Shown: piece by piece, positions 16,379-24,562 of the stretch | Numbering within the stretch: the first letter of the stretch is position 1 | How the letters are laid out: each line of letters begins with the position of its first letter | Source of the DNA: Circinella umbellata | Lineage: Eukaryota > Mucoromycota > Mucoromycetes > Mucorales > Lichtheimiaceae | Direction of reading: 5' to 3' | Length of the DNA stretch: 64,000 bases | Assembly: GCA_025093555.1 (NCBI GenBank) | Contig: JAIWNF010000010.1 | Location: 372,001 to 436,000, forward strand | Notes under the pieces: model-generated | Seen by the model: the letters and a program-made list of their open reading frames with translations, nothing else | The model's database searches: none | Told to the model about the DNA's origin: nothing | Made by a program: the position numbers and the translations under genes

Positions 16379-19120
16379 GCATTGCTTGCTACATAACTCC
16401 ATGTCAACATCATACTCCGCGGAAAGTGTTTGGGGTGCATGCACATGTACACCACGGGACACCAACAAAACATATTCATTGAATCCTTATATGACTATAA
16501 GTGGATTCCCACGAATACTACAAGTACAAAACCCAAATGCTTGCATATAGATGCTGCTATAACGATGTAATGTTGTTGTTATTGAATAAATATTATGAAA
16601 TATAAAAAAAAGGAAGTCAACAGATGACTATGATCGGCCAATACGTCCGCGCGAAGAGATTAAGCGAAAATGCTTTTATTTTTATCACCAGATAATTTGT
16701 TAAATTAAAAACACAATTAGTATATAAAGAGAAAAACTAAATGTATTGAAACTGTTGTGGCTCTTTTCCATATCCCACCCGCTGGCTATATCCGGCTTGA
16801 AGCCAGTGTATAACTTCAACTCTCTCTCCTTTTTTTTTTTTTACTATTATCCAACCAAAAAAAGCATAAATCTTTTACACTCATCTTTTTCTCTATTTTC
16901 TTTTATTTCTAAAAACATAACAAAAAAATGGTAGAACGACAATAGGTAGTCTCCATACTGCTTTATAATTGTTTTTTTTCTTCTGGAGGAGCAACATCAG
17001 TCGTTTTCTTAACTTCTCCCTTTTTCTTTTTTTTTATCCTGCTCTCCTCATCATCTATTAAATCATTCTCTCTCCCTTTCGAAATACTACGAATGTAAAG
17101 GTTAGGATTGACCATCGCAACTGTCATTTTTTCCTTGCTTCTTTCGTTTCTTTTTCCCACCAGACACCAAAGATTTCTTTTGTTTCACTGATACATCTGT
17201 TCAAGGCGCCAAAAATCAAGTTTCTTTCCGGTTCAAGACGCTTTTTTTGTATTTACTTATTGCTCGATCTACCCTTCTATTCATCATTTTCTTATATTTT
17301 CTTTTTACAGAAACAGTAGTTTTATCAGTTTCTTAATGTAACACTCTCGTTCTTTTTTTTTATCTATTTGATTTAACAGTTACAAAAAAAACACCCAACA
17401 AATCACATTCACTTTTTTTTTAATCTGTTCCCTTTTCCCTCTATTCCCCTTGTCATTTTCTTTTTCTTTCTTTTTGCTACTATCCACCTGCGTATATATG
17501 CATGTTTCTATTTCTTGCTATATACAGCTGTTCCGATTACTCTTTGAAGCATAGCAGTCCCCTCCCAGTCCCGTTTCAGTGAAATGTATCTTTATTCTGT
17601 TTGATCATAATGAACAGAAAGCGGAAACAAAATAAATTGTTGTCGCAGCATGATATTTAGCTGCTTGATAGCATTTCTTTGGTTTATTTTTCCAAATAAG
17701 ATGTATGAGATTTTCTTTTTTTTTTAGAAAAAAAAACACAGAGTTAAGAGAGATATGAGTAGTCAAAATGAAAAATCGAGAACATTTACCAATATAGTTC
17801 ATAAGATTAGTTGTTGCAAATGTTTTTACGTATTGTAAGATACGTAATAGCAGTTGATAGATGAACAAGTTGAAAAGAAAAGTATTTTCATGAACTTTAT
17901 GCATAAACACCATAAGCACATGATAGCTATACTATATTTGTACGTACGTATAACCTAAAAAGACTATCATAATGAGATGATTTTCAGTAAGAATCGCCTT
18001 ACTGAAACCAAATAAAAATACACATAATTTATTATAATACATAGCACGGACATCCCATATTTTGTCCTTACGGACACCCAACAAATAAAAAGTTGGCAAA
18101 CAAGTTCTTAGACCATGTAAACTATAGTACCAGCGTTATCAACACCAATACTGCCTATTTGACCACTCATTTATATATCATTAAAAGTATACATTATTCT
18201 TTGTTTGCCTTGTCTTCATATGGACTACAGCTCTCACTTGTTTACATAACGATATAGTGAGAGCAAATAAAAAATATTAAACGATGTTTATTAAAAATTG
18301 AACTGCTAATTTAGACTTCATAAACATTTTTAAGTTATATAACGATAATAGCTGTATATATAGTGTATAAACGGCTGGATACAACGTAATTATATCAGAC
18401 TGTTACGTATGTATCTTTGACAAAGTATAAAAGTGGGGTGTTCGTAAGAACTAAAATTACCTAATATAGCATGTTTTTGGGATGTCCATAGTAAATCCCA
18501 AAAAAAAAGATATACTAAACATTATGGAATTTTCTAACCGCTGTGCTTGGTCGTGCCATTGCCCTGCATAAATAACATTTTCTAACATATAACGAGGTTA
18601 AAAAAATGGGCGCTTTTGTTTCGTTTTCAATGATTTTCTCTTTTGTTCAGGAATATAATGATAATGAGTTACTTTATTAAACTTATTAAAAGCACATGAC
18701 AAATCAAAAATAAAAACATAGTAGATTTATATTATACAAAACAGAGCGCAAAATAGAGTGCCTCAAGGGTTAGAATAAAATTATAAATAATGCGAAAGTT
18801 GGTTAAATCTTAAAAGCAATATAAATGTTAGTAGTAAAATAGGTACATTAACTATTAAAAAAGACGAAGAAAACCAAATGTGTATTTATATAAGTTAAAC
18901 TATTTCCAAAAATCATTTTTTGAGTTGTAATAATGAGTATAAGTCAAGTTAAAATACATATCGTGGTAAAGAAGGTTTACGTAAAATATATTCATTATTA
19001 GTTATCTGATAAATAAAAATAATATCATCTATACACATATGTAATCTTATTATTATGAAGCCCAGTATATCATAATATTAAGTAGCAATGGGTAATTATT
19101 GAAAATTGCCGCAGGATGAC
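16379..19120. other. 2.7-kb intergenic region before the transposon
   Basis: A pyrimidine-rich, promoter-like tract with oligo-A sits around 16800-16927, just before an ATG at 16928, but no coding exon can be followed from it. A 3' splice-like CCCACCAG at about 17155-17162 precedes short open frames. A perfect 10-bp hairpin lies at 17982-18007. GGACATCCCA near 18049 and an inverted partial copy near 18480 may mark the ends of an unrecognised small element. No gene supported. Confidence 0.45.
17982..18007. repeat. Perfect 10-bp inverted repeat (hairpin)
   Basis: TTTCAGTAAG and its exact reverse complement CTTACTGAAA are separated by 6 bases (AATCGC). No gene ends nearby, so a role as a transcription terminator is not evident. 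Confidence 0.7.
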
Positions 19121-19275
19121 GGGGTTATAAATCCCACCTGGTCGATTTAGAACATACATCGACCAGGTGAATTTTTGGGCTTGTCTATTTGCACCCTCCC
19201 TCTTCCACATAAAAAAAAAATCTTGCACCCCCCCTCTCAGGTCCGGCCCGGGATTCACCCCCCTCTGCATAAATA
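19121..19275 (+). repeat. Left terminal inverted repeat of the MULE
   Basis: It shares with the right end the blocks GGGGTTATAAATC, CCTGGTCGATTTA, TCTATTTGCACCC, ATCTTGCACCCCCC and GGTCCGGCCCGGGATTCACC. Unlike the right end it contains an extra internal inverted repeat, CACCTGGTCGAT (19135-19146) and ATCGACCAGGTG (19158-19169), forming a 12-bp perfect hairpin. Confidence 0.92.
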
Positions 19276-19432
19276 AAGGGTTGAATTTAATCAATGCAAA
19301 CGGTTTTTAATTAATTATCACCAAATGAAAATTTATATATTAAAACGTAGATATGTCATATATGATAGCATATATAGAAAGTAAATAACAGCAAAATGAT
19401 ATGAATAAGGACAATATTAACGGCGATCTACC

Positions 19433-22400
19433 ATGCTGCAACATAAGTCATATACATATATAAAGAGAAATATGAATACATTATATAATACTTCTCTTGC
19501 ACAAAAAATATTTTCTTTTTTAAAAAAACTGTCATTCATACCAATGTCGAAATCTTCTAACTCAATTCCTAATGAACTCCAAGAAACATGGGACGATTAT
19601 AATGCTGCCAGAGATGCTTGCTTTAAATGGGGTAAAAAAAATGGAATCGCGCTATACACAGCCAGAAGCGATCTCTCAAGTAAAAAAAGAAAAATGGTTC
19701 TTGGTTGTAAACATTATGGTAAACCTGCCAATAACGACGTTCATGAATGTGAACAAAAATACTCAAAGGCAAAAAGATTTGTTGCCAACGATAATGGTGA
19801 AGTTCTTGGACCTATGGATTCAACAGGAATGAAACACCGAGAAGTGACTTCACAGCGTTTTGGATGTCCTTTTAATATGATTCTTCGACCATTGAATGTA
19901 CATAGTCAGCAATGGCGTATTGTGTCGTTTTTTGATGGAGAGCATAATCACAAACTTGCACAAGAAATATCATCGTACTCCATGGCGCGTCGTCTTGACA
20001 CAGAAGAAGCCATTGTTATAAGCATGATCAAAAGTCATGCAACAAATAACTCGATCTTGTCATTCCTTGCCAGTAAAGGCAAGATCATTAATCCAAAAAA
20101 AGTAACAAACTTACGTCAAACGATATTTAACAATGATCCACAACATACAATGTTCAATTTGATCAAAAAATTAGAAGAGAAGGGCTATGAAATAGACTTT
20201 CAGTCAAAGAAAGAAGGTGAAAAGCGGTTTTTACTTTCTCTTTTTTTTGTGCATAATTCGGCTATTGCTTTAGCTCGCAAGTTTCCTGAGATTGTTGTTT
20301 TGGATGCGACGTACAAGACAAATAAGCATCGCTTACCTTTTGTAAATGTTGTTGGCACTGGTAATATTGGTTATCCACATTTGAAAACATTTTGCATTGC
20401 TGGTGGATGGGTATCCCAAGAAACAAATGAAACTTACGAATGGGTTATTCAACGTCTCCAGAATATTGTTTGGCCATCAAATCAATCTGCGTTTCCGAAA
20501 ATCTTTGTTACAGATAGTGAAGGTGCTTTGATAAAAGCCTTGGATAAAGTTTTTCCTGATTCAAAAAAATTGTTATGCAAAGTCCACCTACGTCGTAATT
20601 TCAGAACAAAATTGCAAAAACTTTTTGATATCAAGGATGATTACCAGGAGCTTGAAAAAGCAGTTAACTTTTTAATGACTGACCAATATCAGGACGAACT
20701 TGAAGATATGTGTGTGATTCCAGATGAAAAGTTTGAGGCTAAAGCATTGGCCAAGTATAATGAAATAGCCCAAAAAGCCAAAAATCCAGCTGAAGTTATC
20801 AAATATTTAAAAGAGTAAGTAAATTATAATAGAATATATTTATTAGTTACAACAATTAACTGACTCTTTATACTTCTAATAAAACAAAACAGAAAGCTAG
20901 AATTCCGTGAAAAATGGGTTGGACGTGATATTGCAAATATAGTTCATTTTGGCAATAATAGTACAAATCGTGTTGAAGGAGCTCATGCTGACCTAAAAAG
21001 GTCAATTCAATCATCCAGTGGAAATTTATTCTCTGTTTTTGAGCAAATCGATGAACACTATAGGTTGAAAGTAAGTATAAAACTTAAATACGATTCATTC
21101 GTTGCTATTACTTACGTGTATTTCTTCTGTAACCCAACAATAGAACGTAGCATGGAAACAGCAGCATGATAAAGAATACTTCACTGTTAATCCCCATATT
21201 CCTGAACCTCAAAAAGAACGCTTAGTAAATTTGGAGCGTAATATATCCAAATTTGCATTCTATGCCATCCGTGATGAGCTTAAGTACCGAAATATTTTGA
21301 AAACAAATATTTGCAGATGTGCTATTAAAGCTCATTACAATATCCCATGTTGTCATATGTTACCCACCACCGGAGCAATTCCGTTAAGTTTGATTCCTAG
21401 ACGTTGGCATCTTTACCCAGAAACAACTGCACCTGAAGGTAATTTTAATCATAACACCTTTTAGGATATTGATATTGAGAATTATATTTCAATTAAATTA
21501 TGTAGAAAATACGAATATGAATGATGTGGATAATGTTCTTGCAATAACAGAATCGTATATTCCACCTAATGTTGAAGACCAAATTAATGATGAACTCGCA
21601 CGTATTAACACCTTGCTTCACAAATATACCGATCAAAAACAACGTAAAACTTTGCTACAACGATTACAGGCAATCAATGATGATCTTTTTGTGGATCTTG
21701 AAGACTTACAGCAGCCGAAAAATGCTCCAAAGAAAGGCAGAGGCAAAGATCAAGAAAAACACAAAAAACGTGATTTAATTGCTTTAGAATATCAAGAACA
21801 AGAAAGTAAAAAAAAAGCAAAAACTAGTTTTGGTCATAAATCTGCTGAAATTTGGTATTTATTTATTTCTAATAATTGATACCATTTAACATATTATCTA
21901 ATACATAATTAATTAAATTATAGGAAGGGGAAGTGTAAAGCCACAGATAACTTACAATTAAACTCATTATCACCATCATCCACTACTCCACCTCGTAAAA
22001 CCAGCATTGTGCCAAATATAAATATGGTAACCAATAACCTGATCCCTTACCTTGAAGTTGACGAAGTGTATAATCCAATTGGAGATGGAAACTGTGGATT
22101 TAGAGCATTGGCAGTTGAACTATTTGGTGACGAAAGAAAATATCTCGATATAAAAGATGCAATGCTGAGACATTATTTGACAAATATTGGCGGTATCTAT
22201 AAAAGTTATGATCAACATCGTATTAAAGGGATCCTCAATCCACATAGCAATGAATGGTTTTGCGTTCCCGAATGTGCTCAGATTGCTTCTGACACATTCA
22301 AAGCTCCAATCGCATTCTACGGCTTTGAATCCAATACATTTTTTCCTCTCCAACTTACCCCATTCGAATCAAAGCGCACACATCCAATAGCACTGCATCT

Positions 22401-22632
22401 TCATCATGCTCATATTATTCTTGTAAAAATCAAACATGACGCGTGTATTCAATGGCCCGAACTCTATTATGAAAAGCGAGGAAGAAAAAGAGAGGTATTA
22501 ACTGTTGATCCGTGGTACCCATATTCAAAGATGTGTTCGATCGATCCATCCGAATTTATAGTGAGGTCTCCCTTCCTGGCGATGCTGATGTTCAATCTAT
22601 TTGTTCTTCTGATCCCGAAACACTCGATTTAA
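19433..22632 (+). CDS. MULE transposase with FAR1-like, MULE, SWIM and OTU domains
   Basis: Five exons: 19433-20814, 20893-21070, 21144-21438, 21506-21854 and 21924-22632. All junctions are GT..AG and keep frame; 970 aa. In order: a FAR1/WRKY-GCM1-like zinc domain (about 50-175; Cys92, Cys145, DGEHNH); the MULE transposase core with VLDATYK (Asp291), VTDSEGALIKAL (Asp361), CKVHLRR and NRVEGAH (Glu489) as the DDE triad; a SWIM zinc finger CRC..CCH (577-591); an acidic/Lys-rich linker; and an OTU-like cysteine-protease domain with PIGDGNCGFRALA (Asp789, Cys792) and a later His-rich HLHHAH. The first ATG may be 19544 instead, where the sequence becomes transposase-like. After SEFI (about 22560) the frame reads an unlikely hydrophobic tail, while the +2 frame continues a natural-looking Ser/Asp-rich tail to a stop; a one-base deletion there is likely. 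Confidence 0.88.
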
Positions 22633-22773
22633 CTAATTAATTATTTTTCTCAACTATTTTTTTTTGTACTGTCTCTTTCTTCTCTTTCCTGTTTCACCTT
22701 TCCTTTCTTGGTTCCATATAAAGATATAAATAAGAAAAAAACCAGTGCGTAAATTATTTAAAAAAGACCTTTT

Positions 22774-22915
22774 TATTTTTGCAGAGGGGGGGTGAATCCC
22801 GGGCCGGACCTGAGAGGGGGGGTGCAAGATTTTTTTTTATGTGTGAAGAGGGGGGGTGCAAATAGACGAGCCCTTTTTTTTCTTATGTAAATCGACCAGG
22901 TAGATTTATAACCCC
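22774..22915 (-). repeat. Right terminal inverted repeat of the MULE
   Basis: Reverse complement of the left terminal repeat, with small indels in the G-runs and a different segment in place of the left-end hairpin. The G7 tracts within it are prone to length change. Confidence 0.92.
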
Positions 22916-24562
22916 GCAACGACATTTTTTTGGCACGGATAATATGAATGGGGGCTTCTGAGCCAATAAGAAATCAGTTTTTTGAATAGCTAATCAAGTC
23001 GAAAAAAAAATTATTTCGCATAAGGTGAGAGATACATTAATAATAGTATGCCTAATTTTGACGGCAAAAACGCATTTTATAAAACATCCCAGTATCTATG
23101 AAGTTACTATAATAACCTGGGAAGTTTTCCAGAATATTAAGAAAACAAAGCATTTATATAAAGAGCCATTGGAATCATTACAGAAGAAGAATCATTGTTA
23201 ACCAACTCAAAAGCGTTACATCTAGAAGCAAGAAAAAAAATACCTTCATCCCTTCAAATGTCTTGTTCAGATACGTATCATAACAGTGATATCACAAGAG
23301 TTTAAAAAATTACATCTACATTAGCACCCACTCATAATGCTACTATTGGCAATTCAAAAAAACTATTATGCTTACTAGAAATGATGATAACCATTAGCAA
23401 AACAACGGTGCATCATATTGATTATTATTATTACTACCATTATCAAGGTAATGTAGAACAGAATAATACATAATCCTCTCGTCCTCTTTCTTGCACAACA
23501 ATATCGATCACAGAGACCTACCCCCTTTATACACAAAGCTCAAGATCTTTAGAAGTATAACGCGCATGCGCAAAACAGGGAAACAAAAGTATCTACAATA
23601 GAATAGAAATACCTAGCTATTTCGTTACTATCTAATAAAGCCATACTCTTTTCCTAGCTATTAATTCTTACGTTTTAAAAATTTCTTCAAAATATTACAC
23701 ATCATCATTTATTTCAAAACCCCTTTTACTTTACTCATCATTTGCAATCTGGATTAAAAAAAAATATAGCCCTCAACTTCACTTCGTGCCATTTTTTTAT
23801 TTTTATTTTTGGTCCCACTTGTATTACTCGATACAAAAAAAAAATTGGTTGTCTTAAAATATATGCAATTATTCAATTAAAATAACTCTTAAAAGAGTTT
23901 CCCGTACTGCTTAGCGCACATAAGAATCAATCTTTTTGAATTTGACAGTTTTTTGACATCAAGTACTGTACACAGTATGAGGCATTCAAAAAATCACAAT
24001 CTAACATTACTACGTAGTAGATTAAATTTATTGATAATAAAAGGGAAAGAAAAAAAATGACTAAGGAAAGGCTGCGGCTTAATAGGACATATCCGCTCTA
24101 GTCCGATCCTGTTGGCAAAGGGATATGAAAAACCTCAAGGGTAATAAGGAAAAAGGCAAAAGCCAATATATTTGTAGTACAAGTGAGACAATAGAAAGAA
24201 TATCTTTACCAAGCTTCACGGATCAATTAGTTTCCTTTACCCATCATTGCTTCTAATGGGCTAATGCATTTATAATAAAGTGCATATGACAATCAAGAAA
24301 AAATAACCTATGTCATACTAATACTTATTCAGTATCTTTAGTAAAAGTTTATTATTTTCCCGCATATGAATATATTTTCTTTCTACATTACTGAACCCAC
24401 CAATGATCTTGTAGAATGATAGTTTTATAGTACTAATGACGTTTTCAAATACAGTATATATTGGTAGTATTATTTGTATATAGATTCTTGATCTACTATA
24501 TCTTCATACAGCTTTGATTTCGAAGGAATTATATATGTCGACATGGGCGTGTAGCTATCACA
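22916..24562. other. Intergenic, repeat-degraded DNA right of the MULE
   Basis: AT-rich with many stop codons in all frames. Some short stretches look like eroded coding sequence, but none could be assigned. It leads into the integrase relic at 24563. Confidence 0.4.

Follow-up and report, generated by a model that had tools for sequence, protein, structure and literature searches.

Why would a DNA transposon carry a domain that resembles a ubiquitin-removing enzyme? The question arises from a locus in the fungus Circinella umbellata (Mucorales), within a stretch of 64,000 nucleotides (assembly GCA_025093555.1, contig JAIWNF010000010.1, positions 372,001 to 436,000 of the forward strand), here called the window. 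An initial annotation, made from the letters of the window, had described there a transposon of the Mutator-like (MULE) type whose transposase is fused to an OTU cysteine protease. We find that the element is a cut-and-paste MULE DNA transposon, with a MULE-type DDE transposase and terminal inverted repeats (TIRs). Our preferred reading, to which we assign a probability of about 0.6, is that the transposase bears a C-terminal OTU-fold cysteine protease acting as a deubiquitinase for transposition.

A MULE transposase with a C-terminal OTU domain

As initially annotated, five exons join in frame to encode 970 amino acids, across GT-AG introns of 78, 73, 67 and 69 bp. The Pfam scan that had been proposed as a check of the joined protein detected the MULE domain at E 8.8e-20 (71.4 bits against a cut-off of 27.6), together with the related ZSWIM RNaseH-like model (E 1.9e-8), and the predicted DDE residues Asp291, Asp361 and Glu489 fall within MULE motifs. 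Two other proposed domains fared less clearly. The FAR1-like domain gave a suggestive signal (E 0.011) under the cut-off, which is exceeded in the related proteins P0005 and P0011, and for the SWIM zinc finger there is a CxCx(9)CxH motif at residues 577-591, with SWIM itself unreported by Pfam. The annotated OTU core, GDGNCGFRAL, spans residues 788-797. It contains the DGxC motif, and alignment places catalytic-type residues at Asp789, Cys792 and His898. Alignment A3 had 26 rows, of which 13 that were fragmentary or gapped were omitted. Cys is found in 12 and His in all of the 13 aligned OTU parts, another set retains both in 9/9, and most relatives keep the Asp, Cys and His of the motif. A predicted structure of a full-length relative has the OTU fold. 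Motif, homologues and this predicted fold together point to an OTU domain.

The fusion itself is well supported, with transposase and OTU part combined in one predicted protein in P0005, P0011 and P0017. The plant proteins P0023 and P0024 also carry it, so that the locus is more than the fungal parallel to plant Ulp1-bearing MULEs that had been suggested. The OTU part occupies the same place in families only ~30% identical, in fungi and plants. Across nine proteins, OTU and transposase distances correlate with r 0.91, a value partly driven by close pairs and equalled in none of 5000 permutations. OTU-bearing transposases also cluster in the tree (0/500 shuffles as low). A single origin of the fusion is not firmly supported, as support depends on the tree rows. 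It was 47/10 with 22 rows, including P0014, which entered this first tree as OTU and whose partial record has no OTU stretch; two changes resulted without P0014, and support rose to 100/99 only after P0037 and P0034, which are long or gappy, were also dropped. One relative, P0002 from Circinella minor, is a MULE protein with a C-terminal PF03732 match and a CCHC-type name in place of OTU, which may reflect a nested insertion or a joined gene model.

Selection was assessed with Nei-Gojobori ratios of nonsynonymous to synonymous divergence (dN/dS) between the window and other genomic copies. For the OTU exon, they were 0.23 (C161), 0.19 (C200), 0.21 (C171) and 0.30 (C150), and not computable for C209. 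Transposase exon 1 gave 0.13-0.69 over all matched copies, for example 0.22 (C171), 0.17 (C150) and 0.40 (C200; second piece 0.28), and, in copies with internal stops, 0.55 (C161) and 0.48 and 0.69 (C164). The ratios for C171 and C150 are rough, with dS exceeding 1. Values well below 1 between diverged copies reflect constraint.

A putative USP-like protease in place of OTU in sister elements

With the window OTU as query, 79 rows merged into 59 OTU places in the genome. Twenty of these follow a MULE domain by no more than 5 kb on its own strand, and none lies upstream; uniform placement predicts 0.13 such links, although the links are not independent events, since many elements duplicate one another. 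Of the MULE domains, 29 score 55 bits or more, a line set after the rows had been viewed; 20 of these are followed by OTU, six by a different, USP-like open reading frame (ORF) and three by neither (C105, which runs into the contig end, and C24 and C157, which show neither within 5 kb). The 48 domains below 55 bits comprise four with OTU, two (one element) with the USP-like ORF and 42 with neither. The MULE and OTU lists are lower bounds.

The USP-like ORF (L077:733-1812, corresponding to C143:523732-524811) encodes 360 amino acids and recurs in six other long copies of that MULE family. In all seven it follows the MULE domain at a distance of 1,601-1,608 bp, and two of them have internal stops. 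It first drew attention through what we take to be the Cys and His boxes of USP enzymes. Pfam, NCBIfam and PDB searches with this ORF yielded nothing useful. The ORF has 84 matches in the genome, and six of them (E 9.8e-19 to 5.1e-16) overlap with loci that narrowly exceed the cut-off of the Pfam UCH model (24.3-32.5 bits; cut-off 23.9), so that its probable homology to USP/UCH (C19) peptidases is indirect, through genome homologues. The UCH_1 model (PF13423) gave six rows, none of which was used. The linker preceding the ORF is similar to the one in elements with OTU (E 3e-6 and 4e-4 in single-pair comparisons, and 5e-4 with the window's linker), and direct comparison of OTU and the USP-like ORF detected no similarity. 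This replacement of OTU by a dissimilar protease at one position suggests that ubiquitin removal itself is selected. With an OTU or USP-like protease behind 26 of the 29 good MULE domains, the role of ubiquitin-field proteases in transposons becomes testable.

A second set of OTU ORFs (L073:1638-2318, corresponding to C112:742637-743317, and L075:1984-2670; eight copies at 99-100% identity) follows an ORF that resembles a transposase and is not named by Pfam.

Proposed function and alternative explanations

We propose that the OTU part has deubiquitinase activity and would reach the transposon ends together with the transposase. There it may take ubiquitin off the transposase itself or off host proteins at the cut sites, such as repair or silencing factors, and the outcome would be a longer transposase lifetime or better integration success. 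A bolder version, which we hold tentatively and at somewhat under even odds, makes deubiquitination obligatory for transposition in this MULE clade: since almost all members have a ubiquitin protease behind the transposase, with the unrelated OTU and USP types swapped at the same junction, the activity rather than the domain would be what is conserved.

Several observations weigh against an active protease that serves transposition. Pfam names no OTU domain in the window protein (PF02338 unreported; Otubain C65 at E 0.27), in the sequences of nine relatives that were scanned or in one further sequence; P0017, the best relative, reaches C65 with E 0.00069, under the cut-off. Sequence searches against solved structures (PDB) gave no significant match (E only 0.33 and 0.66). 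AlphaFold modelled the window-type OTU poorly in a job with five sequences (mean pLDDT 48.6), and this model was set aside. Immediately ahead of the catalytic His, the residue is Asn in 6 of 13 rows and, in the window's family, Ala. P0004 has Gly at the Cys position, the domain is incomplete in P0001 and P0003 and it is absent from P0002. These losses may stem from decayed copies or gene-model faults. At the level of the genome, OTU dN/dS was higher in C128 (0.38), C198 (0.67) and close copies (0.42-0.59, from few changes); the low ratios come from the more diverged comparisons and the higher ones from decayed copies. Beyond the window's own shift in exon 5 (see below), all six long copies compared have at least one frame-changing indel relative to the window in exon 1, 3 or 4. 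Because each differs in this way, the whole protein cannot be credited to any single copy compared.

Some of these points would fit a proteolytically inactive OTU part that serves as a structural module or binds ubiquitin, namely its escape from Pfam and PDB sequence searches, the variable residue before His and the relative without Cys. We nevertheless rate such a module as quite unlikely, given the near-complete retention of Cys and His in both sets and the USP-like protease in the same place in sister elements, which suggests that catalysis counts. More room is left for a protease directed at host silencing, for example through histone deubiquitination, instead of at the transposase or a repair step. 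Histone deubiquitinases occur among both OTU and USP enzymes, and the transposase could carry the protease to chromatin; we regard this target as unlikely, though deserving of attention.

Two further explanations concern the joining of the parts rather than their activity. MULEs are prone to acquiring host gene fragments (PMC6446971), and the OTU exon might be such a captured piece, a Pack-MULE-like passenger with no role in transposition. This view is disfavoured and very improbable in light of the shared position in ~30%-identical families of fungi and plants, the dN/dS of the OTU exon and the joint divergence of the two parts. That transposase and OTU are instead two separate adjacent genes has in its favour that four introns are needed to join the parts in the window. 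Splice sites and phases fit throughout, however, and the relatives are single predicted proteins, so that we give this option almost no weight. The OTU deubiquitinase in the service of transposition remains our preferred reading.

Extent, insertion site and integrity of the element

The genome (50.8 Mb, 210 contigs) was searched for copies. Other copies sharing the termini, a feature on which the initial interpretation had been made to depend, were found. C142 and C126 start and stop at the same two points as the window element, have different flanks and are each 99.7% identical to it (11 mismatches per 3,695 aligned bases). They shorten the annotated span of 19121..22915 by ~50 bp per side (Table 1). 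The excess is a palindromic repeat that stands at C124 without a transposon, and the TIR measures ~100 bp rather than the reported 150 bp.

Table 1 Features of the MULE-OTU element in the window.
Feature	Position	Strand	Remarks
MULE-OTU transposon, true extent	19177..22873	+	3,697 bp; ends set by copies C142 and C126
5' TIR	19177..19277	+	~100 bp; starts GGGCTTGTCTATTTGCACC
Exon 1	19433..20814	+	MULE domain (Asp291, Asp361) after an N-terminal region with a weak FAR1 signal
Exon 2	20893..21070	+	Carries Glu489 (STNRVEGAHADLK)
Exon 3	21144..21438	+	SWIM-like CxCx(9)CxH motif, residues 577-591
Exon 4	21506..21854	+	Charged linker
Exon 5	21924..22632	+	OTU domain (Asp789, Cys792, His898)
3' TIR	22772..22873	-	
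Flanking palindromic repeat	19121..19176		Outside the element; also at C124
Other arm of flanking repeat	22874..22915		Outside the element

Target-site duplications, which the initial annotation had proposed to define through the copies, are 8 bp long. They are perfect in four of the eight copies with both ends in view (C142, C126, C20 and C164), with A-rich sites in C142 and C164 that make a chance match easier. C209 and C189 show near-duplications (7/8 bases), and C161, with an altered 3' end, and the window copy, whose flanks agree at 5/8 bases, have no matching duplication. The family, unlike the window copy, thus shows a duplication within the 8-11 bp given for MULEs in PMC6446971. Window positions 18560-18839, on the left flank, match C124 in reverse, and 22878-23196, on the right, match it forward. 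These opposite orientations suggest a rearrangement (or two repeats) at the site, and a rearrangement would explain the missing duplication. From ~22,515, exon 5 of the window copy is frame-shifted relative to other copies, affecting the last ~30 residues, and its OTU core is an open reading frame. With neither a matching duplication nor an intact C-terminal frame, the element was too generously described as 'complete'.

Relation to known transposon proteases

OTU domains on transposons are already known from a hydra MULE, Ginger1 and Helitrons. The hydra element MuDR-6_HM (group 14, Dupeyron et al. 2019, PMC6446971) is listed with 'Ovarian Tumour Gene'; by this listing it shares MULE and OTU with our element and differs in its cnidarian host and a TIR entry of 'None'. 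Ginger1 likewise has a C-terminal OTU or Ulp1, never both, on a DNA transposase (PMC2836005). Its transposase is of the Gypsy-integrase type, its hosts are animals and the exchange partner is Ulp1, where we find a USP-like protease. Helitrons and Helentrons, which are rolling-circle elements without a DDE transposase, carry deubiquitinase-type proteases of different classes, OTU or VTD, either singly or side by side (PMC9741609, PMC4067079). The VTD proteases of Helitrons are active and have been suggested to keep proteins that transposition requires from being degraded; the same paper states that, as of 2022, the activity of transposon OTU domains had not been assayed (PMC9741609).

Plant, hydra and lancelet MULEs with Ulp1 also combine a MULE with a ubiquitin/SUMO-field cysteine protease, Ulp1 being of another family (PMC2836005). 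A USP-type protease occurs on a transposase of a different family in T. vaginalis (transposase_11 with Peptidase C19), and a role in repair has been proposed for transposon proteases (PMC2836005). The group MULE-Mucorales (group 5, PMC6446971) comprises MULEs with SWIM from Mucoromycota. It is listed with 10-bp duplications and a 40-bp TIR, and no protease is given for it; the 8 bp and ~100 bp found here set our element apart from that group.

In the literature searched, from which subscription papers were largely missing, we found no account of a MULE-OTU fusion in fungi or plants, nor of an OTU/USP exchange. Babu et al. 2006 reportedly draw MULE domain architectures and may already note OTU. 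As Pfam left the OTU part unnamed in the fused proteins scanned, such fusions may be under-annotated elsewhere. A Pfam OTU profile search over the genome marked two places, both outside the MULE-OTU element described here. Next to the C142 copy lies a further frame (L012:1-1344) that contains NKTGT and reads like a candidate P-type ATPase, with NKTGT presumably in place of the usual DKTGT.
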